From Rhodamnia argentea (Eukaryota > Streptophyta > Magnoliopsida > Myrtales > Myrtaceae), in the NCBI RefSeq assembly GCF_020921035.1, contig NC_063152.1:34206494-34270493 (forward strand): a DNA stretch of 64,000 nucleotides, written 5' to 3'. The notes below the pieces were generated by a model. That model searched no databases, had not been told where the DNA came from, and saw nothing but the letters and a program-made list of their open reading frames with translations. The translations under genes and the position numbers were made by a program. The stretch's first letter is position 1. The number at the start of each line of letters is the position of its first letter. Positions 36,243 to 64,000 of this stretch are shown here, one piece after another.

Positions 36243-37201
36243 ATGAATCGTGCATTCTCAATCTCTTCCCTATTCCTGATCCATTTCGTCGTAATCTTCC
36301 ACGGTGTCCGATCCGCGAGCGATATATCGTTCGGGACACCTGCAAGAAGATTGCAGCCATTGAAGTAGAGTTGAACTTCGACTTCTGCGTGAAGTCCGTT
36401 GGGTCAGACCCGCATAGCCATGAGGTGGATCTCGAAGGACTGGGGCTGATTGGGCTCAAGCCGTTACAAGCCAACATTACAGGCACGACCGAGTACATTA
36501 AGCAACTGCTGAAGCAAAAATTGGAACCGCGCATAGTCGAAGATCTCTCAGACTGCTTGAACCTTTACGCCCCTTTGGGGGGAATTCGTAAATTGTGTTG
36601 AATTTATCGGCCAACACAAGTAAAACAGTCGTGGGATTAGGCACGAAGCTGACTAAAGACCGACCGAGTTCGGCCCGACTAAGATAGGATGAAACAATAT
36701 GTACCCATCACCTAGTTTTTGTGATCACAATCCCTGTGATGCCATAGAGTGCGGTGAATGGACTTGGTCTGCTCTACTCTAGGATCGAATGAATCCCTTC
36801 TCTTAGTGTTTCTTCGGCGTTGTTTTTTTGTTCAGCACTATTGAACCCACAAGAAATGGGAATGTAAAAAGTTTGACAATATTGCTTAGGTCATAACGTT
36901 TATTGGACCAATTTAGTTCTAAATTTTTTCATTTTGGTACTAATTTAACCAAGCCGGCCAATTTAGACTAGGAATCTCTAGCATGAATGATGGTCGCTTA
37001 CATGACCCCGATTACAAGGCGAAGTATTATTCAGCTGTGAATGGTTGGATGTCTGCAGTTTTAAGTAGCGAAGATATGTGCGATACTCAATTTTTGCGGA
37101 AGAAAGGCATGGTTCCACCTTTGACAAAGCCTAATGCTGAGGTTTATCAATTGTGCGTCATAGTACTTGTTATTGAGAATGTTTTGGATGGGACAGCGTA
37201 A
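36243..37201 (+). pseudogene. Broken PMEI-domain gene (putative invertase/pectinesterase inhibitor), copy A
   Basis: It starts MNRAFSISSLFLIHFVVIF like copies B and C, a signal peptide. Near 36,321-36,335 the DNA has two extra bases ('gatatatcgttcgg' against 'gatctcattcagg' in B), which shifts the frame right after the signal peptide. Beyond it the correct frame resumes with NFDFCVKSVGSDPHSHEVDL to about 36,580. Then roughly 420 bp of foreign DNA (about 36,583-37,000) interrupts the gene, and the last part returns as DPDYKAKYYSAV to KKGMVPPLTKPNAE and a stop at 37,199. Two independent lesions mean no functional product. The insert contains a piece of the long-hairpin repeat family at its right end. 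Confidence 0.85.
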
Positions 37202-43876: not shown

Positions 43877-44076
43877 GCAAACTTACACCCCAAACAACCT
43901 ATTATATATTAATCCAAAAATAGAGTACACTAGCTCAATGGGAAAATTATCAAAAAAAAATCATAAACTTATTGCATAATGCTAATTCAGTCCGAAACCT
44001 TTTAATGGTGTCAATTCAATTCTAAGCATTTTGACAATTTAGTTATAAACCTTTCGATCGTGCTAATTTAGTCCTA

Positions 44077-45006
44077 AATATTTTGATGATTTACCAATTT
44101 AATTCTAAATATTCTAACAATTTACCAATTTTGGTCGGAAATCATTGACGTGGTAGGCCATCGGCTCCTATCATGGACAAATCTTAAATTATTTTTTTGA
44201 AATTTTTATATTTTTTTCTTTTTTCTATTTTCTTTTCTTCCCATCTTTCTCTAACTGGTCCCCAAGCCTAGGAAAGAATCGCCGAGGTCAGCCTCCCCAT
44301 GGCCATGGCAAGGTTGAGCCTTGCTAAATTCAACAAGGCTGGAAACTAGGCAAGGCTCAAAATCCCCAGCCATGGCAAGGCCGACCTCTCCCAGTGAAAG
44401 CCAAGGTGAACTTGTCGGCCTTTACCTTTGGTTGATCGTCGGCCATCAACGAGGTCCAACGACCCAGTTAGAAGAACAAAAAAAAAATTATAAAAATTCC
44501 ATAAAATATTTAAAAAAAAACTCAAAAATTATCCACGTCAAAAATATTTTGATGATTTGCCAATTTAATCCTAAATATTCTAACAATTTACCAATTTTGG
44601 CTAGAAATCACTAACGTGGTAGGCCATTTAGCTCCTAATGTTGACAAATCTTAAATTATTTTTTTGAAATTTTTATAATTTTTTCTTTTTTCTTTTTTCT
44701 TTTTTTTTTCTTCCCTTTTTTCTCTAACTGGTCACCGGGCCTAAGAAAGAACCGCCGAGGTCGGCCTCCCCATGGCCATGGCAAGGTTGAGCCTCGCTAA
44801 ATTCAGCAAGGCTGGAAAATGGGCAAGGCTCAAAATCGCCAGCCATGGCAAGGCCAACCTCTCCCAATGAAGCCCAAGTCAAACTCGTCGGCCTTTGCCT
44901 TTGGCTGATCGTCGGCCATCATCGAGGTCCAACGACTAGTTAGAAGGAAAAAAACTTTATAAAAATTTCATAAAATATTAAAAAAAATTCAAAAATTATC
45001 CACGTC
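44077..45006. repeat. Two tandem 465-bp units within a hairpin repeat
   Basis: Units 44077-44541 and 44542-45006 both run from 'aaatattttgatgatttacc' through 'ggtaggcca', 'ccatggccatggcaaggttg' and 'gcctttgcctttggctgatc' to 'ttcaaaaattatccacgtca'. Copy A has one unit, so this duplication is specific to copy B. Confidence 0.8.
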
Positions 45007-47396
45007 AGAACCAACAATGCCACATAGAACGGCTGTCACTAACTAAACCGTCATGTTAGTGATTTTCAACCAAAATCATCTAGAACAACTAAATTGGCAA
45101 ATCGTTAAAATGTTTAGAACTAAATTGGCACAATTATAAGATTTAGCACTAAATTGGTAAGTTTTCCAAAACTTTAGAACTAAACTTGCATAATTGAAAG
45201 GTTTATGACATAATTGGCGCACGTACAAAATAAGTTTAGGACTATTTTGGTAATTTCCGCCAAAATTTCCTTCTATTGATCTAAAATTATAGATAGAAAC
45301 AATCCTTTTTATCATTATGTGAAACGAAATTTTCTTCCTTCAAGATAATGGATTGCTTCTTCTTTTTTACTCAATTACCAATTTTATTTGCATGTATCCA
45401 AACGTTGTTTTCATCAGAATTTAAAAAAAAAAAAAAACCTAAATATAAAAAGGATATGCTTCCTTGACATTCTAATAAGACTGTCAGTTATTTCTAACTG
45501 TAAATCTACACACCATCACCGCGTGTTTTGCATAAAACACTTATTAATTGAAAAATCGTTGGGTCAGAATAATGACAATACTATCAGACTATCGGGATAG
45601 CATGTCCCAAAATAATTGTAACCAATGGGCTCCAAATGACCCCTAAGACTTTAAGTTTCTTTCGTTCATTTCGAAATGAAAAAATCTCAGTTTGTTGTGA
45701 TAACAAATATCACTACAATGTTTTTCTCTTAGATATTGTAGCAACAACAAAAAATAAAATTTGAGATTAGATCTTTCAATTGTAATACTTTAATTTTTCA
45801 AGTAACATGGTTAAATAAAATTTATAATTGTTACTTAAAAAATTCCTAATAAGGGTCTCAAATGCTGTCAATTTCTCAAAAGAGGACCAAAAAGAGATTT
45901 TATTTCGAACAAGGGTAGGAAGTGGCCATATTAGTCTAAAAAAAAGCTCTAACTTTGTCTATGACCAAATATTCCGATTGGTTGAGGGAATTTTCATCCA
46001 AAGATACATATTCTTTTTATTTTCTTTCTTTTCTTCCATGTTCATCTTCTTCTTCTCGGAGCCAACCAACAGATTTGTCAATGCAATCCAACTTTAAGTT
46101 CTAGTTGACCGCGAGGAACCAGAGATTCTTGAACTGGTACAACATCTGCGACCAACATGAAAACACGGCCCGACATAAGGGTGAGCTTGTCGAGGGAGGA
46201 TAGCCGGCCGATCGCTAGGTCAATGCGGCCAGTCATGCTTGGAGAGCGGGCTCTGGATTGCTAAGGCTGGAGGCAATCACCGGCGGCCTCCTACTGGCCC
46301 TCGCTCGAGCCCTTGCCCAATTGCAAGTGAGAGTTGAGAGCCCATGCCTAGTGGCTAGTGAAGGCCAGGACCCTCGCTATGGATGGGGAGGGCCCGCAGG
46401 CCCTCACGGAAGTACCCAGTAACCTCCTGCTGGCCCAAATAAATAAAAGGGCAATTTTAAAAAAAATATTAAAAATATAAAAAAAAATATTAAAATATTA
46501 TTTTAAATTGTCAACGTCATGGCCGGTCGGCTGGCCAAATGGACTGAATTAGCACTATTGCAAAAGGTTTAGGACTCAATTGGTAAAAAAAAAATGTTTA
46601 AGACTGAATTGGCACAATTGCATAGGTTTTGGACTTTTTTGGCAATTTTCCCTACATATGTGTGTGTATATATAAGTATAAACATTCTCCATTAAGCAAT
46701 CTTGTGTCGGAGAATCCTAGGCTAAAATCGGATACAAAAACTTTAGCATCTTGGATCTACCATTCCAATTTTATCACATAATAAAACATGAAATAATTCT
46801 CTAGGAGGCAATCAAAAGAACATAGTGTTCAAGGACTTATCGACTCAATATTAGCAAGCCAATCAACAAGATATTTCTTTCCGAAAAGTTATGTAGCACT
46901 TTGAATTATAAGTGAGAGCTCAACAGTCTTATGATATATTTAAACTATTATAGCTGCACCCGATAATCTAGAAGAATATACATGTATATATAATTTATTT
47001 TCAGACAACCTATAAGAATAAGTACTCTCGAAGAGGCAATCTTACCAAAACAACCGGCTTTATTAGGACATTGTATGGATTTCTGGTAATTATGGCTGTA
47101 GGCAGGTCGATTTGGCAATCTAATTGGAGAAGCTGGTATTAATTTGGACATGATTTGGATTTATGGTAATTATGGCTGAAGGCAGGTGATTAGGCAACCT
47201 TATCAGACTTGCCTCTTCGAGAAGATTGCCTGCTTCTTGGATGATATTTATCCTTACAACTGTCTACTATATTTGGTTTGGCATAATACCATATTTGAAA
47301 TTGTGTTCATGTATAACATGACCCGTCCTTTCAGTACTAATAGGCTATCTTCATAAGAAAGTTTAAACGAAAATATCCATCTCCGTGATAAGAAAA
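45007..47396. other. Duplicated non-coding DNA upstream of PMEI gene B
   Basis: 45,007-45,260 is the right arm of a hairpin repeat. 46,250-46,660 is another half-hairpin with a GC-rich block (matching 63,530-64,000 inverted). 46,680-47,390 is the conserved upstream region of all three PMEI copies and likely contains the promoter, with repeated phrases such as 'ggatttatggtaattatggc'. No further gene found. Confidence 0.5.
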
Positions 47397-47942
47397 ATGA
47401 ATGGCGCATTCTCAATTTCTTCCCTATTCTTGATCCATTTCCTCATAATCTTCTGTGGTGTCCAATCCGCGAGCGATCTCATTCAGGACACCTGCAAGAA
47501 GATTGCAGCGATTGAGGTAGAGGTGAACTTCGACTTCTGCGTGAAGTCTCTCGGATCAGACCCGCATAGCCATGAGGTGGATCTCGAGGGACTAGGGCTA
47601 ATTGCGGTCAAGCTGTCACAAGCCAACATTACAAGCACGATCGAGTACACTAAGCAACTACTTAAGCAAAAGTTGGATCCGCGCCTACTCAAATATATCT
47701 CGTTTTGCTGGACAGTGTACGCCCCATTTGAAGGCAAAGACGTGATCCCATTTTACAAGGCGAAGGATTACAAAACCGTGGGTAGTTGGGCAACTGTACT
47801 TGGAGGTAACGAAGATATGTGCGACTCTCAACTAACGCAGAAGAAAGGCATGGTTCCACCTTTGACAAAGCGTAATGCTGAGATTTCTCAATTGAGCGCC
47901 ATAGTAGTTGATATTATGCATTTTTTGGGGTGGAAAGCGTAA
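47397..47942 (+). CDS. Secreted PMEI-domain protein, putative invertase/pectinesterase inhibitor, copy B (181 aa)
   Basis: A single exon of 181 residues. The start ATG at 47,397 aligns with those of copies A and C. The first 24 residues (ending GVQSA) form a signal peptide, so the product should enter the cell wall or the vacuolar route. The mature part has the four conserved cysteines of the PMEI fold (Pfam PF04043): QDTCKK, FDFCVKS, ISFCWT and EDMCDS, which pair 1-2 and 3-4. It also has SDPHSHEVDLEGLGLIAVKL and the C-terminal GMVPPLTKRNAEISQLSAIV typical of Pla a 1-like 'putative invertase inhibitors'. Members of the family block either cell-wall invertase or pectin methylesterase, and sequence alone does not tell which. 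Intact and probably functional. Confidence 0.88.
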   Translation: MNGAFSISSLFLIHFLIIFCGVQSASDLIQDTCKKIAAIEVEVNFDFCVKSLGSDPHSHEVDLEGLGLIAVKLSQANITSTIEYTKQLLKQKLDPRLLKYISFCWTVYAPFEGKDVIPFYKAKDYKTVGSWATVLGGNEDMCDSQLTQKKGMVPPLTKRNAEISQLSAIVVDIMHFLGWKA

Positions 47943-48383
47943 TGGATGTAATGAAGTGTTGTAACCAATAAATTAATGCATAGTCTATGAATCTCCATGG
48001 TAATCTGAGTCTTCTTCTTTTTCAATTTTTTTTTCCTATACGCTCTATTTCTAGCAAATGCATTCCTATGGATGGAGATCCTTTCCCCATAGATAAATGC
48101 CAACTATTGGAATGAATCTATAAATCAAAATCAACGTTTGAAAATTTCATTATGTCGAAGAGAAAGCCCTTTTGCGGCCCGTCAATATCTCAATTTGAAT
48201 CTCCCATGCCCACTTTTACCCCGTTTATTTGCTATTTTAGTCAAATATCCACGTCCAGTTTTGGGTTCTCTCACGCGATTTCTCTAACTTAGCCTTATTG
48301 TGTTAGTCATGAAAAGAGTTATTCAATTTTCGTTAAATTATGTCTTGCCTTTTTAGCTACTTTAACATTCTCACTTCTGTGAT

Positions 48384-49034
48384 TTTTTTTTTTTTATCGA
48401 AATGAAGCTGATATCATTCATTCAGTGGAAATGAACTTACACAAACTAGATTTTGTAGGATCAAAAGATAATAAATCCCATAAAGGTTGGGGTCGTTTGG
48501 CAATCTAGTTCGCCAGTCCGCCGCTTCATTAGCCTCGGGGGGGTATAATCCACGGTCACCACCTTGAGCTAGGCCGAAATAGAGTTGCACTCGTGAAACA
48601 AAGATCTGAAAGCCCATGGGCCATCTTCAGGATTGACCAGGAAGGATAAGATAGATTCATTATCAGTGAGTATCTTATCACCCTGAACTTCTTGTACGGT
48701 TGATTTACTTTCCCCACTTGCGGATCTGATTTCCCGATGCTTCTCTCTCTCTTTTTGCAAGTTTCGTAGCGCCTGTAGTACTCCCAAGGTTTCCATCTTA
48801 AGCACAGATCCGACCTTCTCCTTGCTCGCGAAGCCGATAATTGTACTTCTTCGCGCATCTTGGCAGATTCCTGCCACGGATCCTTCCTTCTCTCCTTAGA
48901 TCTATGAGCCGTCTATGTTGAAGCTCCAATGTCCCTGTTTCGGGATGCTTCCAAATTGCAGATAAAGTTTGTACCTTTTCACTTCGATTCTGATTCTCTA
49001 GCGAGATACGCTTGAAATTAATTTACCTCTATGG
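48384..49034 (-). mobile_element. 5'-truncated LINE fragment with poly-A tail and target duplication
   Basis: On the minus strand it ends in a poly-A tract (the T run at 48,384-48,395). The site is flanked by 'cattctcacttctgtgat' (48,366-48,383) and 'catcattacttttgtgat' (49,035-49,052), an 18-bp target duplication with four mismatches. Copy A (37,660) and copy C (about 61,795) keep the uninterrupted site, so the insertion is specific to B. About 650 bp of the 3' end remain, covering the RNase H-like domain. Confidence 0.85.
48410..48960 (-). pseudogene. LINE RNase H-like domain remnant
   Basis: The minus strand reads HWSFNIDGS then a stop, followed by GSVAGICQDARRSTIIGF, METLGVLQALRNL, ILTDNESILSFLVNPEDGPW and, after a frameshift, PPEANEAADWRTRLPN. 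These are the order and spacing of the RVT_3 RNase H domain at the C-terminus of plant LINE ORF2 (DG, an acidic residue in the ALR helix, TDNES, N-x2-AD). The stop and the frameshift make it inactive. Confidence 0.75.
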
Positions 49035-49052
49035 CATCATTACTTTTGTGAT

Positions 49053-50900
49053 TTGATTAATACGTATATGTGGGGAAATTTTATCAAAATAGTTATAAAT
49101 CTATTGCACTTTTGGCAATTCAATCATACACCTTTTAAATTTATCAATTGAGTCCTAAAACATTTTCACTTTTTGCTAATTCGATCCTATTGGCGGTAAA
49201 TCATTGATGTGGACGTTGGTCATCATGGCACACCCGGCACCGATATGTACAATTTTTTTTATAATATGTTAATATATTTTTCAAACTTTATATTAATTTT
49301 TTTTTTTTTTTTTCCTTTTTTCTTCTTATTTACTTCTTCGACGTTTGGCGAGGATTGCCGGTGGTGAGGTCGTCTCGGTCGTGGCCGTGTTGGCCTCACC
49401 CAAAGCTAGGCTAGGCCGAATGCAAATTGTGTATATTAAATTGTAATAAAAAGTTCATTGTAAAGCAACTTTGGGTAAAATGGTGTTTGAAAAAAATATT
49501 TTTGCAAAAGACTTTTTTTGTTTTTTATTAAAAAAAAAACTCAAACCTTTCGCCAGAGCCAAGGGGCGGGCTTAGGCCACCGGTGACCAAGATCCGGTGC
49601 CAATGGCTGTCGTATGATGTCACACGACAACATCAACAAGCCTAGGTGAACATCGTAGACTGCCTTCACGTAGAGAAGATGAACAATTACAATGAGGGCA
49701 AAATCGAAAAATAAAGGATTAGGGACAAACATGCCGACAAAAGATGAAAGTCTAAGACACACCAAGAATTGCCTTGGCTTTCAACTTTTTCAAAGCTCAC
49801 TTTTCTTCAAGGCCATTTAAAAAAAAAATTTAACACCCAAAATTTGGCCCAAAGAGGTTTTGGATGCTCAAAGCCCCTTGAAAAAGCCTTTCGCAAACGA
49901 AGTAAGATTATCGTGGTTGTAGTTGGATGACTCTAGGTGACACTCACGGATCTTTGGTGCGGCCCGTCAATATCTCTCTTTCTAAAAAAAAAAAAGGACC
50001 GCTCGACAGTCGATCTGTCTGAGGTCGCACACGTCTAACTGGAGTTTGTTGTGCTCAAGAGGCATTTGGGGGTAAAAGTCATAATTGTATAAAGTTTCTG
50101 AGGGCAAAAATGTGAACTGATAATTTTCATTAATTCTTGAACAAAATTTTCTGAAAATGTTGCAAAGCTAAAAGTTGAAGTTGCTTTCTTAAGCCGTGCC
50201 AAATGCCATCCAAAGACAAACTTTCTTCTGGTCACCTTTACTGCTCTTTCGCTCAATCAAATCGAAGACCATTGTGAGTCCTTGTGCAATCATGACCACG
50301 TTTATATAGGCAAAATCGATCAACGGAACCGGCTGACGAGGCGATACTGCAGACTAGGTGAATGTTGTCCACCTTTGTCTCTTTAATTAAATTATCCATC
50401 TTAATTACCCGACGTGTGTGGTCTTAACATTCCAACCAATGCCAATTACCTACATCCAAATGTCCATCCCATGCATCCGATCTCAAACCTAATTGAATTT
50501 ATAATAACGAGCCTTCTATGCCCATTTATTGCGAAAAAGTCTTCAACCACTAAAAGCTATGTGACCCTCCAATTTCTTGACCCAAAAAAAATAAAGAATT
50601 CAATAAATTGCATTTAATCAGAAAATACTAGCTTTGAACTACTGCTGTATAGTGTCGGACAAAAAAAAAAAAAAAAAGAACTACTTCGGCACAGTGGTCC
50701 ATGTCTAGCTACTTCTTCACATTCAGTTTTTTTTTAATCTTTTCTTTTTAATTTCCCTTTTGTGCTTCAAATTTTAAAACAACTCCTACTTGAAGGGCTC
50801 TTTTTCTCTCATTTTATTCGACATTTTGTTGTACATGTTCTTAATTACATATATCAGGGGTGTAGGAAAACACAAGTAAAAACAACTCTAGCGAGGAAGA
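49053..50900. other. Non-coding duplicated DNA to the right of PMEI gene B
   Basis: 49,053-49,430 is the left half of a hairpin repeat cut at 'aggccgaatgcaaattgtg'. From there on it matches 60,000-61,400 inverted. Open frames such as 49,541-49,765 (-) and 50,035-50,256 (-) have degenerate partners in the other arm and no domain, so they are not called. Confidence 0.45.
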
Positions 50901-50911
50901 AGTAAAAATTA

Positions 50912-51150
50912 GGCTCCGTTTGTTTCGTGAAAAATGAATAGTTTGAATAATGTTTTCTTGAAAATAATCATTTGTATCGCTAGAAATAATTAGTTGATAA
51001 AAAAATTTCATTATCTATAATAATTTATGTTTAAATAGCTTCATGGACGATAAAAATATTTTCCATCCAATCGTTTTTGTAAGAGATCGTTTTTAGGAAA
51101 ATATTTGCTAGATCATTCATTTTTGACAAAACAAACGAAACATTAAAGAG
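50912..51150. mobile_element. Short hairpin MITE with 'ccgtttgtttcg' ends
   Basis: The left 'ctccgtttgtttcgtgaaaa' and the reversed right 'aatgtttcgtttgttttgtc' form inverted ends, both followed by 'aaaatgaat'. A copy at the same place in the other inverted arm (about 59,700-59,945) shows it was present before the inverted duplication. Class uncertain (hAT or Harbinger). Confidence 0.55.
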
Positions 51151-52269
51151 AGTTTCTTTCATAAAAAAGGGATAATTTTTAAAAGTATTTCTTAAGGTGG
51201 GCAAATCAACCAACTGAAGGCTGCTTTTCAAGTCATAAGTTACTGGCAACTCAATCATGTAACTAATTTAAATTTAGCAGTAATTTATCATCTTGTTTCA
51301 TATTTACCATTCGAAACAAAACCTTACAAGACAAATTAGTAATTTAGAAAAAAACCTTACCAATTCATAGTCAATTGACGACATGCATTCAAGCATACTA
51401 ATGCTATGTTCCCAGCAATGTATGGTATTTACCAAGGAGAAAATGATTTTACCATTTTCAAATTTCCTAGTATGTTATTTATCATTTATAAAGTTTAGGT
51501 TTAAGGACAATCCCAACTTTTAAGTTTATTCTTTTGACATTTTGGACCTCTAAGTTTTCTTATAGCGCAATCTCTAGCTTTCTCAATTTGTGCAATGAAG
51601 TCCTTTCATCAATGATTGTTAGTAACACCATCAAATTGCTAACATGGCGTCACACCGACATGGCACAACATGGACCTATGGTGTTTATGAGGCACCAAAT
51701 AAGCTCCACTTCGAGCAAACACAAGCAACAAAATATTCTGAATTTTCCAACACGCAATCAACTCACTAAGGTTTGTCAAAAGCATGTCAAATTCATATGA
51801 TTGGAGAGAGATAGGAATCGAGATCGGTCTGTGGTTCCACATCCAGGTACAGGGCGCACAATGATGTTCGAATTGAGTGGTGAATCTTCGAATAAAGCAA
51901 GGAAACGTGAAGTACATATGAAAATGAGATCGCATAGAATTGCAAGAAAATCAAAACAAAATTACTTGAAAATGTAAAGTGTGGCAATTGAAGTGGCATG
52001 AAAAAGCAAAAGATAATCATATTCATTTTTTCAACTCGTTGATGTAATATCATGAGTTTATTTTGATAGATCAACAAAATTACGCTCATGTCTTACATTA
52101 GTCGCCCATTACAACGACATGTAAATATAGGGGATCTTCCACTTTCTTTGACCACAATACATGTCGAAACAATGGAAAAGAAAGAATATCTTGTACCTTC
52201 TTGCATACGTGCTCCTCCGGAAGCACACACTAGAATTTGCTATCCTTTGATAATCTTGCCGCTCCAACC

Positions 52270-55874: not shown

Positions 55875-57878
55875 CAGTCTTGCAATCGTTCTCGCTCTCC
55901 AGTTTGATTGTGCCAGAGCTTTCTGAAGCTTAATGTCATCTTCGTGAATTCGAGGGACTTGAGTTTTTAAGCAGATTTTTGTCGAGTGTTTACCGTTTGG
56001 AGAAGTGTAGTTTGCCGCGAGAGACGGCGATGGCGAACGGAATTTCATTGGGTGTCCGTCTTTTAACGGAGAAAGCCAATCTGAAGAGTGGCGTCGGTGG
56101 AATTGGGTTCTGCGTAAAAACATGAATAGGGTTGTCTGGGACTCCACCATTGACTTTTCTCGGTTTGAATTCCGAAATAGCCTCACTCTTACCCGTCGCC
56201 ATCAATTTGTTCACACTCTTCTCTGTTTCAATAGCTGTATATTGAAGGGCTACTCAAAATGGGAGACGTAGTCGGATTAAGAACGACCATTTATCGAAAA
56301 CTTAGTGCAAGCTCGCGTTCCGATCTCCACTTGTTATAACCATGCAGCAAAGAGAATTCAACCTTCATTCCAGGGTTCGATTTATTCTACAGATAAAAAA
56401 ATCGAATTTATTACAGGATTTCATTAACCATTCTCAGTCCACTGATTCAAAGCATGCCCTTGTTAAAATGCATGTTCTTCAAGATCCAAGCTGTTGGGAT
56501 CCTTCAAAATAGTATCTTTGTGATGTGGCACTTCTTTTTTCTGTTCGATCATCCTTGTCTAGAGGTTATTTCACTGCGGCATCTTTAAGTAAGGCTAGAG
56601 TCCGCACAGTAATCAAGGGTTTTCCATTTTAAACCCTTCAGTGAACTTTTTTTTTTTTTGGCCCGAAATGGTATATCCTACAAATTTATTCTTCACTATG
56701 GATATGTCATGTTTATTATAATTTTATTTTTCCAAGTAAACCTTTTTTGGTCAAATTATCCCTTGACATGCGACAATCAAAACAATGATTTCGAGTAGCT
56801 ATTATGAAAGTCGGTGTGCTCCTCGCCTTTCGGAACAAACATCCATATTACATAATGAGATCGTTCGTCTTGTCGTTTTCTTCTTCTTCACAATCTTTTC
56901 ATAACACTTCATCCGAAAATACCGTATCCGAAGATCACGTGAGACTTAAAATGTTTATTTGCCGTAGCTTGCGCTCTTCTATTTCACTCACTTCTCTTAT
57001 GGAAAACTTCGTTTGTCTGTTAATCCAAGTTCCCTCACTTTTCAGATTATTAATCCTTTGAATATGGATTTCCTCTTTGAGAACATGCTTCAGTACAGTG
57101 ACGTGAGCCCGCTGGGTCGTATTGCGATACCAAAGGTCTGTATCTTTCATTAGGGTTTGGAATACATTATCTCTGGCAGAACACAAGCGATCTACCTCAT
57201 CCGTTCCATACTTGCATGAGATTTTTGCTTCAATTATATGCATTCAGACTTTTTTTTCTAGTAAATATCACCCATTGTAAGAAGGAAAAAAAAAACAATA
57301 ATTTAGTTCGAGCATAACGCAGATGTGTAGGGAATAAATCCATTGGTATAAGCCCGCATGGAACTTATGATTAGTAGAGCACTTTTGAGTCAAAATGCGG
57401 ACTTAAATTTACTCTAAATCTGAAAATGAGGTCATCTGTCCCGGTCTATATTGTGTTAATCATCAAGTTTAGTACCTGGTCTAGTTTATACTGATTAAAT
57501 CAACCAATGACATCAAGCTGACGTATTTCTTTTCTTAAAGCTGGACAGTACTCTAATTTTTGGGGGATTTCTGGGTATAGAGAAAAGATGATACTCTAAA
57601 GTGGAAAAATGAAATTAATATTTTTCTTATTTATCTCCGTATATTAAAGTGATATAAATAAGAAAAATATTAATGGAAAACAGAAAAATGACATTTTTAG
57701 TTCTCAGATCGTGAAAAATGATTGATTATAAAAAGTAGCAGTATGACAATTGATAAACGATTAACAGCAATCTGGGACCGTTTTGGTATTAGCTTAATTT
57801 CGGTTTTCGTTTTTCATTCAGTTTCTGAATTCAAGAGCAACATTAGCTAGTTTGCCTCTGGCGATTGTTCTTATATTT

Positions 57879-58972
57879 ATGGCCTCGAGCGGGGCCCATT
57901 CTGTAATGATCGGCACCACTGTCGTGGTGAGCCGGGACGGCACCGGAAACTATACGACCATCCAAGACGCGGTCCAAAAGGCTCCCAATGATACCGATGG
58001 CACGAAAGGGTATTTTCAAATACACGTGACCGCGGGTAACTATGAGGAGTATGTAAACATTCCAGAATACAAAAGATATCTGATGATGACCGGAGACGGT
58101 ATTAACCGGACGGTCATCACCGGCAATCGTAGCGACCATGATGGGTGGGCCATTAATGTTGGCGCAACATTCAGTAAGACTTCTTCACTGTAGTAAAGAT
58201 TAATGTTAGGATTTAATCCAATATCTAAAAATTAATGTCACCAATTCATTGACCTTATCGCAGTCGTGACAGCACCAAATTTTTTTGGCGAAGGACATCA
58301 CCTTCCGGAACACGGCCGGGCCACAGAAGGGCCAGGCCGTAGCTGTCCTAACTAGAGGCAACTTTTCGGTGTTTTACCGTTGTAGCTTTGAAGCCTACCA
58401 AGACACACTATGGACGCAAAGTGTCAACCCACTCTATTATATCTACCATTTCTATCGAGAGTGTGACATCTACGGCACAGTCGACTTTATCTTTGGCGAC
58501 TCATCCGTAGTATTCCAGAACTGCAACCTTTACCCCCGCCTCCCATTTCCAGCCGGGGCCAACACGATCACCGCCCAGAGCCGTTCGAAAGGGATGGCCC
58601 ACGGGCATGTCTTTTCAAAATTGCACCATCAAGGCGGCCGCCGACCCGGCCTCAAGCAAGACCCCCGTGCTGACATATCTAGGGAGGCCATGGAGGGAGT
58701 ACGCGAGGGTCGTGTTCATGCAGAGTTTCATGGACAACCTTATCGGTCCTGCCGGGTGGGACAAATGGGATAATAATACTCGGCTGGACTTACTGTACTA
58801 TGCGGAGTTTCAAAATAGAGGACCCGGAGCGAACACGAAGGACCGAGTCCAGTGGCCTGGGTACCACGTGATTGGTGCAAAGGACGCCGAAAGCTTCACC
58901 GTTGCAAACTTCATAAATGGGGACTCCTGGCTACCTCAAACAGGCGTGCCATACACGAGGGGGTTGATATAG
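57879..58972 (+). pseudogene. Pectin methylesterase gene with two frameshifts and no pro-region
   Basis: Exon 1 is 57879-58173 and exon 2 is 58264-58972, separated by a 90-bp intron at the position usual for plant PMEs (after ...GATF). The protein demethylates cell-wall pectin. Landmarks: [45 protein letters not shown] (catalytic Asp), YLGRPWREY and DSWLPQTGVPY. The frame breaks at about 58,281-58,288 (after ...APNFF, one extra base in 'ttttttgg') and again at about 58,593-58,606 (before GMSFQNC). Translation from the only in-frame ATG (57,879) lacks a proper signal peptide and the PMEI-like pro-region of type-I PMEs, and the hydrophobic stretch just upstream has no ATG. All catalytic motifs survive, so it is either a young pseudogene or suffers from sequence errors. 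Confidence 0.85.
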
Positions 58973-59663
58973 TGTTACTTGGAGATTTGTATGTGAGCAC
59001 TCTCGACTGATTAATCCTCCTATGCAGGAGCTTGCAGATTAGCAAATGAGTAAAAACGAATAAAATAAGTTTGTATGAAATGAACTTTGTCACTAGTAAC
59101 TATTTGGAAGATTGGTCTTGAGGTTTGGATCTCCTACTTATTTTCTGCCTTATCGAAGCAGTTTGCGCTATACTAGAAAATAAATGTAATCTCCGCCCCG
59201 TGCCTCTTTTCTTGGTAAATCTAGAAGGTAATGCATGCCTAGAGTTGCTGATCCCACAGGAACTATTGAATGTCCACAGGTTTAGTGATCTATCTAAATA
59301 TAATAGGATTTTGATGGAAATATGAAAGGAAAGCTGAGATAGCACTTGATAAACAAAGTGTAGTTGCAAATTCGGATTAAGATGAATTGCAGCATGAAAT
59401 GTGTGCTTTAATTTGATCTTTTTGGTGAAATCTCATCTAGGTCTCACAGTTCTTGGACGTATGATACGTAAATTGGTGGATCTTGTAGAATTAGTCTGGA
59501 TCGACACTTCTGTTTCCCGAATATATTGAACTTGGCTTTTTCACTGCCAAATATGGTTCTAAGGGAAGGAATTGACCCACCTTCGAAGACGTATGGGGCA
59601 TCCATGTGGCCTGGCTTCTACTATGAGTTTACAAAATCACTTTTGCTATCTTCTCTTTCCTAC
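58973..59663. other. 3' flank of the pectinesterase gene
   Basis: No coding signal. Probably contains the former 3' untranslated region. The inverted arm starts at 59,664. Confidence 0.4.
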
Positions 59664-62265
59664 TTTTAAAAATTACCCCTTTTTTAGGAGAGAAACTCTC
59701 TTTAATGTTTCATTTGTTTCGCGAAAAAACGAATGATCTAGAAAATATTTTCCTAAAAAAGGTCACTTACAAAAACGGGTGGATGGAAAACATTTTTATC
59801 GTCCACGAAGCTATTTAAACATAGATTATTATAGATAGTGAAATGTTTTTATTAATTAATTATTTCAAGGGAGACAAAGGATCATTTTCAAGAAAATATT
59901 TTTCAAATTATTCATTTTTTGCGAAATAAACGAAGCCTAATTTTTACTTCTTTTTCGCTGGAGTTGTTTTTTACCTGTGTTTTCCTACACCCCTGATATG
60001 TGTAATTAAGAACATGTTTAAAATGTCGAGCAAAATGAGAGAAAAAGAGCCCTTCGAGTAGGAGTTGTTTTAAAATTCGAAGCACAAAAAGGAAATTAAA
60101 AAGAAAAGGGAAAAAAAAGCTGAATGTGAAGAAGTGGCTAGGCATGGACCACTATGCCGAAGTAGTTCAAAGCTAGTATTTTCTGATTAAGTGCAATTCA
60201 TTGAATTCTTTTTTTGTTCCCCCTTTGGGTCAAGAAATTGGAGGGTCACATAGCAATTTAGTGGTTGGAGACTTTTCCGCAATAAATGGGCATAGATTGT
60301 TCGTTATTATAAATTCAATTAAGTTCGATATCGGATGCATGGGATCGTTATTATAAATTCAATTAAGTTTGATATCGGATGTATGGGATGGAAAATTGGA
60401 TGTAGGTAATTGGCATTGGTTGGAATGTTAAGACCACGCATGCCGGGTAATTAAGACGGATAATTTAATCAAAGCAACAAAGGTAGACAACATCCACCTA
60501 TTATGTCGTATTGCTCCGTCAGCCGGTTCCGTTGATCGATTTTGCCTATAGAAATGTGGTCATGATTGCACAAGTACTCGCGATGGTCTTCGATTTGAGC
60601 GGCGAAAGAGCAATCGAGGTGACTAGAAGAAAGTTGTTTTTGGATGGCATTTGGCACGGCTTAACAAAGCAACTTTAACGTTCCGTGAGTGAAAGTTGTG
60701 AGATAAATATCTTTTGGGTTACTTCGAGTAAAAGATAGCGTTGACAAAGATCACGGTAGGTCAGTCCCTAGATTTAGCTTTGCAACATTTTCGGAAAATT
60801 TTGCTCAAGAATTAATGAAAATTATCAGTTCATATTTTCGCCCTCACAAACTTTATACAAATTATGACTCTTACCCCCAAATGCCCCTTTTGTTCAAGAA
60901 ATAATGATAATTTTGCTTCATTTGGGAAAGGCTTTTTCAAAGGGTTTTAAGCGTCCAATCCTTTGGGCCAAATTTTGAGTGTTAAATTTTTTTTATTTAA
61001 ATGACTTTGAAGAAAAGTGAGCTTTGAAAAAGTTGAAAGCCTAAGCCAAGTCTTGGTGTGCTTTAGACTTTCACGTTTGTCAGCATGTTTGTCCCTAGGG
61101 TTAGTAAATTTTTTTCTTCCAAAACTATCGTTTGTTTTCCGACTTTGCCCTCATTATAATTGTTCATCTTCTTTGCGTGAAGGTTGTCTACGACGTCACC
61201 TAGGCTTGCTTGATGTCGTGTGACCTTAGATGACAGCCGTTGGCACCAGATCTTGGTCACCGGTAGCCTGAGCCCTTCGCTAGCCCTGGCGAAAGGTTTG
61301 ATTTTTTTTAATAAAAAAGAAAAGAAAAATCTTTTGAAAAAATAATTTTTTTCAAACATTATTTTAGCTGAAGTTGCTTTACAATGAACTTTTTATTACA
61401 ATTTAATAAACACAATTTGCATTCGGCCTAGCCTAGATATTGGTGAGGCCAACACGACCACAACCAAGGGCAGCCTCACCCTTGCAATCCTCGCCGTCGA
61501 GGAAGAAGAATACAAGAAGAAAAAAAGGAAAAATAAAATAAATATAAATATAAAGTTTGAAAAATATATTAACATATTATAAAAAATTATACACGTCGGG
61601 GCCGGTTGTGCCACGTAGGATGACCGGCATCCACATCAATCATTTACTGCCAATAGGACTGAATTAGAAAAAAGTGAAAAGGTTTAGAACTCAAACAATA
61701 AATTTAAGAGATGTATGCTTGAATTGGCACAAGTGTAATAGATTTATAACTTTTTTAATAATTTTTTCCCACGTAAGCATATTAGTCAAATCCCAGAAGT
61801 GAGAATGTTGTTATAGCTAAAAAGGCAAGTCATAATTTAACGAAAATTGAATAACTATTTTCATGGCTAACACAATAAGGCTAAGGCAGAGAAATCGCGA
61901 GAGAGAACACAGAACTGGGCGTGGATATTTGACTAAAATAGCAAATAAATGGCACAAATAAGCAGGAATTGGATATTCGAGTTAAGATGAAGGTGGGCAT
62001 GGAAGATTCAAGTTGAGATATTGACAAGCCGCAAATGAGCTTTCTCTTTGACATAATGAAATTTTCAAACGTTGATTTTGATTTATAGATTCATTCCAAT
62101 AGTTGGCATTTATCTACGGGGATGGGATCTCCATCCACAGGAATGCATTTGCAAGAAATAGAGCGTATAGGGGAAAAAAAAAATGAGAAGGAAGAAGACT
62201 CAGATTACCGTGGAGATTCATAGACCATGCATTAATTTATTGGTTGCCACACTTCATTACATCCA

Positions 62266-62841
62266 TTACGCTCTCCACCCCAAAAAATGCATAATATCAA
62301 CTACTATGGCGCTCAATTGAAAAATCTCAGCATTACGCTTTGTCAAAGGTGGAACCATGCCTTTCTTCTGCGTTAGTTGAGAGTCGCACAAAACTTCGTT
62401 ATCTCCAAATACACCTGCAAAACCAGCCACAGATGAGTAATCCTTCGCCTTGTAAAATGGGATCACGTCTTTGCCTTCAAATGGGGCGTACAGTCTCCAG
62501 CAAAACGAGAGACGTTTGAGTAGGCGCGGATCCAACTTTTGCTTCAGTAGTTGCTTAGTGTACTCGATCGTGCCTGTAATGTTGGCTTGTAACAGCTTGA
62601 CCGCAATTAGCCCTAGTCCCCCGAGATCCACCTCATGGCTATGCGGGTCTGACCCGAGAGACTGAACGCAGAAGTTGAAGTTCACCTCTACCTCAGTCGC
62701 TGCAATCTTCTTGCAGGTGTCCTGAATGAGATCGCTCGCGGATTGGACACCACAGAAGATTATGAGGAAATGGATCAAGAATAGGGAAGAAATTTTGAAT
62801 GCGCGATTCATTTTTCTTATCACGGAGATGGATATTTTCAT
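62266..62841 (-). CDS. Secreted PMEI-domain protein, putative invertase/pectinesterase inhibitor, copy C (191 or 181 aa)
   Basis: A single exon. The first in-frame ATG is at 62,841 and adds ten residues (MKISISVIRK) before the start shared with A and B at 62,811. In A and B the matching codon is not ATG, so the shorter 181-residue form is the safer family start. It has a signal peptide ending GVQSA and the four PMEI cysteines QDTCKK, FNFCVQS, LSFCWR and EVLCDS. It shares 157 of 181 positions with copy B by my count. Of 24 differences, 14 fall in two blocks, around the third cysteine and just before the fourth. As for B, the target may be an invertase or a pectin methylesterase. Intact, on the strand opposite to B, inside the right arm of the inverted duplication. 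Confidence 0.88.
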   Translation of the reverse strand: MKISISVIRKMNRAFKISSLFLIHFLIIFCGVQSASDLIQDTCKKIAATEVEVNFNFCVQSLGSDPHSHEVDLGGLGLIAVKLLQANITGTIEYTKQLLKQKLDPRLLKRLSFCWRLYAPFEGKDVIPFYKAKDYSSVAGFAGVFGDNEVLCDSQLTQKKGMVPPLTKRNAEIFQLSAIVVDIMHFLGWRA

Positions 62842-63529
62842 TTAAACTTTCTTATGAAGATAGCCTATTAGTACTGAACACAATTTCAAATATGGTATTA
62901 TGCCAAACCAAATATAGTAGACAGTTGTAAGGATAAATATCATCCAAGAAGCAAGCAATCTTCTCGAAGAGACAAGTCTGATAAGGTTGCCTAATCACCT
63001 GCCTTCAGCCATAATTACCAAAAATCCAAATCATGTCCAAATTAATACCAGATTCTCCAATTAGATTTCCAAATCGACCTGCCTACAGCCATAATTACCA
63101 GAAATCCATACAATTTCCTAATAGAGCCGGTTGTTTTGGTAAGATTGCCTCTTCGAGAGTACTTATTCTTGTAGGTTGTCTGAAAATAAATTATATATAC
63201 ATGTATATTCTTCTAGATTATTGGGTGCAGCTATAATAGTTTAAATATATCATAAGACTGTTGAGCTCTCACTTATAATTCAAAGTGCTACACAACTTTT
63301 CGGAAAGAAATATCTTGTTGATTGGCTTGCTAATATTGAGTCGATAAGCCCATGAACACTACGTTTTTTTGATTGCCTCCTAGAGAATTATTACATGTTT
63401 TATTATGTGATAAAATTGGAATGGTAGATCCACGGCGTTAAAGTTTTTGTATCCAATTTTAGCCCAGGATTGTCCAACACAAGATTGCCTAATGGAGAAT
63501 GTTTATACTTATATATACACACATGTAGG
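62842..63529. other. Upstream region of PMEI gene C
   Basis: Matches 46,680-47,380 inverted over its whole length, including the repeated 'ccataattaccaaaaatcca' phrases. It likely holds the promoter of copy C. No separate gene. Confidence 0.5.
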
Positions 63530-64000
63530 GAAAATTGCCAAAAAAGTCTAAAACCTATGCAATTGTGTTAATTCAGTCCTAAATTTTTTTTTTTTTTGGT
63601 CAGTTGAGTCCTAAACCTTTTGCAATTGTGCCAATTCAATCCATTTGGCAAGTCGGGCGGCCATGACATTGACAATTTGCAATAATATTTTAATATTTTT
63701 TATTTTTTTAAAAAAATTATCCTTTTATTTGTTTGGGCCGGCAAGAGGTCGCCGGCTATTGCCTCGAGGACCTGTGAGCCCTCCCCAACCGTAGCGAAGG
63801 TCTTGGCCCTCACCAGCCACTAGGCAAGGGCTCTCAAGTCTCACTTGTAGTTGGGCAAGGGCTCAAGCGAGGGCCAGTAAGAGGCTGCTGCCAAGGCTCT
63901 AGGCCTTTGCCAACTACTAGCAAAGGCTCGCAACCTTCACCCAGTGGCTGGAGAGGGTGCCTCGCAGCCCTTGACGAGTGTCCTCTTGCTGGCCCTAACC

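Follow-up and report, generated by a model that had tools for sequence, protein, structure and literature searches.

A short, fast-changing helix segment in two duplicated PMEI-family genes of Rhodamnia argentea: probable diversifying selection within DNA homogenised by gene conversion

Two neighbouring genes of the pectin methylesterase inhibitor (PMEI)/invertase-inhibitor superfamily in Rhodamnia argentea, here called copies B and C, resemble each other closely along most of their length and in the DNA beside them, but differ sharply in two short blocks, one around the third conserved cysteine (block 1) and one before the fourth (block 2). What made these blocks diverge, and what has kept them apart? 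A first-pass annotation of the locus offered two answers, diversifying selection on the surface that meets the target enzyme or a patch imported by gene conversion from an unseen paralogue. Working from one genome, we compare the two copies with each other, with a broken relative next to them and with the other PMEI loci of the assembly, and ask which history the blocks fit best.

The genes, their setting and their predicted structure

The window, by which we mean the whole stretch of 64,000 nucleotides analysed, is C3:34206494-34270493 of a 346.7-Mb assembly, and positions without a prefix are counted from its first letter (Table 1). Copies B and C score 46.6 and 36.7 bits respectively against the Pfam model PF04043, above its gathering score of 29, which places both in the superfamily; C would be 191 residues long if an upstream in-frame ATG were used. 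They lie in the two arms, each about 7 kb long, of an older inverted duplication (44.0-51.2 kb for B and 59.7-67.6 kb for C). Besides copy A, the comparisons use the paralogue L011 (C3:25623483-25624019), which is open for 177 residues and has 57% identity to B. By our own reading, only three of the 18 close loci, B, C and L011, keep a whole PMEI domain in one frame. Inside the B arm, at 44206-44936, there is also a direct repeat of 258 nt whose copies are 87% identical and 473 nt apart.

Table 1. Features of the locus in window coordinates, with strand and basis
Feature	Position	Strand	Basis and remarks
Copy A, broken relative of B and C, third sequence in comparisons	36243..37201	+	Insertion of 2 nt near codon 28 and ~435 nt of added DNA at 36577-37011
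B arm of older B/C inverted duplication	44000..51187	+	blastn pieces 80-90% identical
Best B-C conversion fragment, B and C sharing sites against A	46844..47510	+	GENECONV-like permutation p = 0.0002 (0/5,000)
Copy B, PMEI/invertase-inhibitor-family gene, intact, single open frame, 181 aa, hydrophobic leader	47397..47942	+	ORF, Pfam PF04043, AlphaFold2
Block 1 in B, in the helix around Cys3 (codons 99-108)	47691..47720	+	Five differences from C in 4 codons, all of them nonsynonymous
Block 2 in B, first part of helix alpha-6 as far as Cys4 (codons 126-141)	47772..47819	+	14/48 nt differ from C
PME gene remnant between B and C	57852..58972	+	PF01095 matches at C3:34264414-34265417 (window 57921-58924)
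C arm of inverted duplication, extending ~3.6 kb past window end	59661..64000	-	blastn and loci L059/L060
Copy C, PMEI-family gene, intact, 181 aa from ATG matching that of B	62266..62811	-	ORF, Pfam PF04043
Block 2 in C	62389..62436	-	Alignment; genome C3:34268882-34268929
Block 1 in C	62488..62517	-	Alignment with B

The gene between B and C encodes a pectin methylesterase (PME) and looks broken: its catalytic domain is split over different frames, stops fall in two of the three PF01095 matches, and no PMEI pro-domain is listed beside it among the PMEI matches of the genome. Proximity to PME genes is common in this clade, with 14 of 18 B-clade PMEI loci lying within 15 kb of a PME match as against one of 30 other free-standing PMEI loci of our choosing. 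This count, made with all 145 PME matches genome-wide (a partial set gave a like result), is not one of independent events, whole PMEI-PME units having been duplicated. The linkage leads us to favour PME as the likely target of B and C. Elsewhere on C3, two PMEI-PME neighbourhoods 8 Mb apart, C3:16662266-16671548 and C3:24791174-24803826 (holding L012, L013, L028 and L031), resemble near-copies, with PME matches of 370.0 bits each, and the PME pair at C3:12812224 and C3:22722495 has equal scores of 309.7 bits; such neighbourhoods look like either large segmental duplication or duplication in the assembly.

An AlphaFold2 model, made for B and not for C, has a mean pLDDT of 92.6 and forms a four-helix bundle with an N-terminal hairpin. 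Its closest solved structures, by Foldseek and VIA-align, are those of Nt-CIF and kiwi PMEI; identity to solved PMEI/CIF chains is 16-27%, and the four conserved cysteine columns are present in both B and C. Block 1 lies within the modelled helix at codons 95-111 around Cys3 and block 2 forms the start of the helix at codons 125-146, before Cys4; available descriptions of the family have its second disulfide linking these two bundle helices. Two fingerprints have been used to tell the branches of the family apart, an SAA in alpha-6 together with a conserved Thr before Cys4 for PMEIs (in passages of PMC8990755 and PMC4512722) and PKF-AE at the start of alpha-6 for invertase inhibitors, with PKF missing in AtC/VIF2 (in a passage of PMC8990755). 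Both SAA and PKF-AE fall on block 2, except for the P, which stands one residue before it, and the mapping onto structure proposed in the first-pass annotation thus puts block 2 on the helix that carries the specificity fingerprints of the family. Neither fingerprint is present in B or C. SAA aligns to TVL in B and GVF in C, the Thr to Met and Leu, and PKF-AE to YKTVG and YSSVA (codons 125-129), so the target of the two proteins cannot be named from their sequence.

For contacts with the enzyme we took the interface residues from PMC4512722, of which one part describes Asn101, Asp109 and Thr113 of kiwi PMEI as hydrogen-bonded to PME. With numbering set by residue identity, these align gap-free to codons 129, 137 and 141, and B and C have different residues at each of them (G/A, G/D and M/L). 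There is no excess of change at these positions over the rest of block 2, since all three would be expected to differ at a probability of 0.21 given the block, and they were dropped as extra evidence; nor do the changed positions gather significantly on one face of the helix (helical-wheel test, p = 0.22). We infer from the homologues that blocks 1 and 2 probably contact the target enzyme.

Clustered differences in a converted gene

Over their 546 nt, copies B and C are separated by 33 substitutions and no indel. Block 2, with the sequence KTVGSWATVLGGNEDM in B and SSVAGFAGVFGDNEVL in C, bears out what had been noticed at first sight: ten of its 16 codons differ and every one of them changes the residue. 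A path count gives 13 nonsynonymous steps and one synonymous step (ACC/TCT) over 36.5 nonsynonymous and 11.5 synonymous sites, the synonymous step belonging to codon 127, so that neither here nor in block 1 is any codon changed silently only. The same pattern had been claimed around Cys3 and is indeed found in block 1. The coordinates first given for block 2 were correct in B and one base off in C (62390-62437 for 62389-62436). By comparison, the other 155 codons hold 11 nonsynonymous and 3 synonymous differences (pN 0.031, pS 0.029), and the 54 nt between the two blocks hold none. The further claim that the surroundings are far more alike applies to the rest of the gene and to the near flanks, which differ by 25/712 (3.5%) over 46661-47396 and 36/435 (8.3%) over 47943-48377, but not to the distal flank, where divergence reaches 95/542 (17.5%) over 49047-49600. 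About 670 nt of the B arm, 48378-49046, are missing from both C and A between matching DNA and represent an insertion in B.

The concentration of differences in block 2 is far from random. The best 48-nt window holds 14 differences, a number that none of 20,000 permutations reached (maxima 13 within the coding sequence and 12 within a 1,436-nt core). Clustering is weaker in a 90-nt scan (p = 0.011) and persists when the differences are collapsed to changed codons (p = 0.00065); the next-best 48-nt window outside block 2 is not significantly clustered (p = 0.075). The make-up of the differences says less. A one-sided Fisher test of nonsynonymous against synonymous changes gives p = 0.02 for both blocks pooled, a set chosen post hoc, and p = 0.09 for the whole gene; the all-nonsynonymous make-up is weak evidence alone, and the B-C pair by itself would not prove selection.

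Gene conversion between B and C has homogenised the DNA around the blocks. Beyond the best fragment (Table 1), low B-C divergence runs on to about 47.95 kb, the blocks excepted, with windows mostly at 1.3-5.3%; over the inner arm as a whole (about 46.85-47.95 kb), windows without the blocks are 1-5% diverged, as against arm pieces that are 80-90% identical. Because A is about equally far from both copies in the core (15.3% from B, 16.4% from C), this low divergence reflects recency and not constraint. Of the sites at which A, B and C are not all alike, B and C agree at 133 of 158 in the core and at 56 of 133 in the distal arm (p = 4e-14), limits for core and distal arm having been fixed after the divergence data were inspected. 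The same count is 9 of 23 in block 2 (p = 1e-5 against the core, p = 0.82 against the distal arm) and 8 of 13 in block 1 (p = 0.054 against the core). Block 2 looks like unconverted DNA within a converted gene. The test for gene conversion that had been proposed at the outset does find conversion, but as a process homogenising the surroundings and not as one importing the patch. At 49251-49345, unlike in the core, A is nearer to B (6.6%) than to C (15.4%), which may reflect a possible A-B conversion there.

Rates of protein change in the two blocks

The blocks were originally picked by eye from the B-C comparison, and the dN/dS scan was hence run with that contrast excluded, in 16-codon windows at steps of 3 on the triples B, A, L011 and C, A, L011. 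The top window is codons 124-139 in both triples, and the scan maxima of 17.3 (with B) and 24.8 (with C) are reached in none of 200 neutral simulations (95% points 9.6 and 9.2). In these triples block 2 has an omega of 2.69 and 3.78 respectively, as against 0.76 and 0.85 for the rest; with both blocks pooled the values are 2.40 and 3.05 against 0.69 and 0.77. The best window that does not overlap the top one, codons 97-112, lies on block 1, with 2dlnL of 7.1 and 9.0, both below the scan's 95% points. The sliding-window analysis suggested in the first-pass annotation thus ranks block 2 first, and the diversifying selection proposed there is supported for block 2 by a dN/dS above 1 obtained without the B-C contrast and by a site on the fingerprint-bearing helix; for block 1 it finds partial backing, as the next separate peak that yet stays under the threshold.

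Codon models of all four sequences (B, C, A and L011) agree with the scan. The two blocks together have an omega of 3.67 against 0.78 elsewhere (2dlnL 32.2 relative to omega = 1), and when B and C are given separate branch lengths in the blocks, which allows for older islands, omega is still 2.66 (2dlnL 16.1, p = 6e-5). On the outer branches only, with the B and C tips excluded, omega is 2.57 for block 2 (p = 0.005) and 2.40 for block 1 (p = 0.027), and dropping the broken copy A leaves block 2 at 3.84 (p = 1e-4). Pairwise fits over the blocks give 7.76 for B-C (p = 0.01), 3.71 for C-A (p = 0.028) and a non-significant 1.96 for B-A (p = 0.26). Several codons of block 2 differ at two positions, and multi-nucleotide mutation could inflate the omega of this block and mimic positive selection. 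In the rest of the gene dN/dS does not fall significantly below 1 (B-L011 0.75, p = 0.25; C-L011 0.83, p = 0.44; B-C 1.34, p = 0.64), so any present function of B and C is putative.

Could the blocks simply be unconstrained, the outcome that had been named as refuting selection? Several paralogues do carry indels in block 2, which agrees in part with that outcome, but nearly all of them are broken copies. Against L011, block 2 has a pN of 0.69 for C and 0.51 for B where the rest of the gene has 0.20, while its pS is 0.25 against 0.26 in the rest for C and 0.37 against 0.27 for B, on only about 11 silent sites. Copy A is 35-43% diverged from B and from C within the blocks, but 12-20% diverged in the non-coding DNA nearby (46691-47396 and 47943-48150). 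Unconstrained sequence should not outpace both silent sites and non-coding DNA, and block 2 is therefore not merely unconstrained.

Three other PMEI clusters of the genome served as controls, with 5 of 9 sequences from C1, 8 of 9 from C9 and 4 of 4 from C6 after partial or distant ones were dropped. The dN/dS scan gave no significant window in any of them. In C1 the second-best window lies on block 2 (omega 1.2, 2dlnL 0.2), where pairwise pN is also raised, and C6 shows constraint over the block 2 codons (omega 0.35). A strong alpha-6 peak is thus seen only in the B clade, and a mild alpha-6 tendency may extend more widely across PMEIs. In C9 (L065-L068 and L085-L088) the best of 163 windows falls on the alpha-6 segment, codons 122-137 in B numbering, with an omega of 1.7 and a 2dlnL of 5.5, below the value of about 9 required in the B-clade scan and so not significant, but a hint of a wider hot spot at this helix.

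Competing histories and comparable systems

The explanation that we consider probable, though by no means secure, is that the alpha-6 patch is under diversifying selection on the target-binding surface and is held against gene conversion. It builds on the intact frames, on the clustering, on a dN/dS above 1 in block 2 that is independent of B versus C, on the homogenised core and on a search of the assembly that found no donor, and it is selection as the cause of the islands' persistence that we infer. On this explanation B and C would be secreted four-helix-bundle inhibitors in which the Cys3 segment and the start of alpha-6, joined by the Cys3-Cys4 disulfide, form or flank the enzyme-gripping surface as in solved relatives. 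Duplications would have produced A, B and C, after which ectopic gene conversion would have re-homogenised the inner B and C arms; conversion of the patches would have been selected against, or overtaken by fresh substitutions, so that the divergence peaks remain. Diversifying selection on the patch would be recurrent in the B subfamily and would most likely serve to keep pace with a group of target enzymes or to partition it. Our confidence in selection is lowered slightly by block 1, which falls short of the scan's 95% points, and by the mixed outcome of the controls.

A neutral history is unlikely in our judgement, but has real points in its favour. B and C might be relaxed or dying genes in which conversion, acting in several tracts, missed two stretches by chance and left old neutral divergence in place; block 2 does share its pattern of B, C and A agreement with the unconverted distal arm, the four-sequence fit improves once the branches to B and C may be longer in the blocks (lnL from -1555.8 to -1550.0), and dN/dS elsewhere is not significantly below 1. 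Such a mosaic predicts an omega of at most 1 in the blocks, however, and the value stays well above 1 both with free branch lengths and, for block 2, when the B and C tips are set aside; A differs from B and C far more in the blocks than in near non-coding DNA, and conversion would also have had to cover the 54 identical nucleotides between the blocks.

That the divergence was brought in from outside, B or C (or each) having taken its block by conversion from a distant paralogue that has since been lost or is missing from the assembly, is very unlikely. The genome does hold many broken relatives that might have served, and block 2 is rich in transversions (9/14, as against 20/61 in the flanks), as expected of an older patch, but the assembly contains no other match to either 48-nt patch at three or fewer mismatches, and the nearest paralogue patch, that of L013 with 42 comparable nt, is 29% from B and 38% from C, so that the import suggested at first is not supported. 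A single import would in any case be insufficient, since both B (4 sites) and C (6 sites) carry private changes relative to A, and a neutral imported patch should carry silent changes, whereas only one of the 14 steps is synonymous. We give as little credence to a purely mutational origin, whether a local hot spot or multi-nucleotide mutations in clusters, without selection on the protein. Four codons of block 2 (126, 127, 131 and 133) differ at two positions, and the indels of its relatives would also fit; its silent sites, on the other hand, are not clearly faster than those of the rest while its pN is more than doubled, and the cluster survives collapse to changed codons. Selection on the alpha-6 patch accordingly remains our preferred reading. 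A larger version of it, which we think improbable, would cast the PME-linked inhibitor subfamily as a partner in a system of recognition or conflict (between pollen and pistil, or with a pathogen PME), with B and C of different specificities side by side, the specificity helix repeatedly rewritten by positive selection and conversion recycling all but the recognition patch, as in receptor or incompatibility loci.

If selection on the patch is real, a helix that likely faces the enzyme is outpacing silent sites within conversion-homogenised DNA beside PME genes, which would point to an arms race between cell-wall enzymes and their inhibitors, and B and C would offer a natural 16-residue swap bearing on target choice in the superfamily. 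The nearest solved relatives, kiwi PMEI (1XG2), Nt-CIF (1RJ1, 2CJ4-8, 2XQR) and AtPMEI1 (1X8Z), differ from B and C in that the latter are without either fingerprint. A whole-gene survey of PMEIs reports, in passages of PMC9354821, that purifying selection prevails and that only a small number of sites are under positive selection, and our literature search returned no paper on PMEIs that brings in both gene conversion and positive selection. The maize cross-incompatibility loci Ga1, Ga2 and Tcb1 are loosely similar, in that members of the pectin methylesterase system act there as determinants at a single locus; the maize determinants are PMEs without a PMEI domain, according to a passage of PMC9010485, whereas the fast gene here encodes a free-standing inhibitor and stands beside a PME gene that looks broken. 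Closer parallels come from duplicates in which divergence peaks are kept by selection despite conversion, as described in parts of PMC3924837 for the red/green opsins and of PMC3728101 for GOT1, with the RH factor also mentioned. The peak in B and C differs from these in being known from one species, and the inhibitor function of the two genes is putative. As in the opsin and GOT1 duplicates of those sources, a short stretch of protein-altering divergence sits at a probable functional site against a homogenised background; in B and C that background includes a significant conversion tract, and dN/dS exceeds 1 in block 2 and, more weakly, in block 1.
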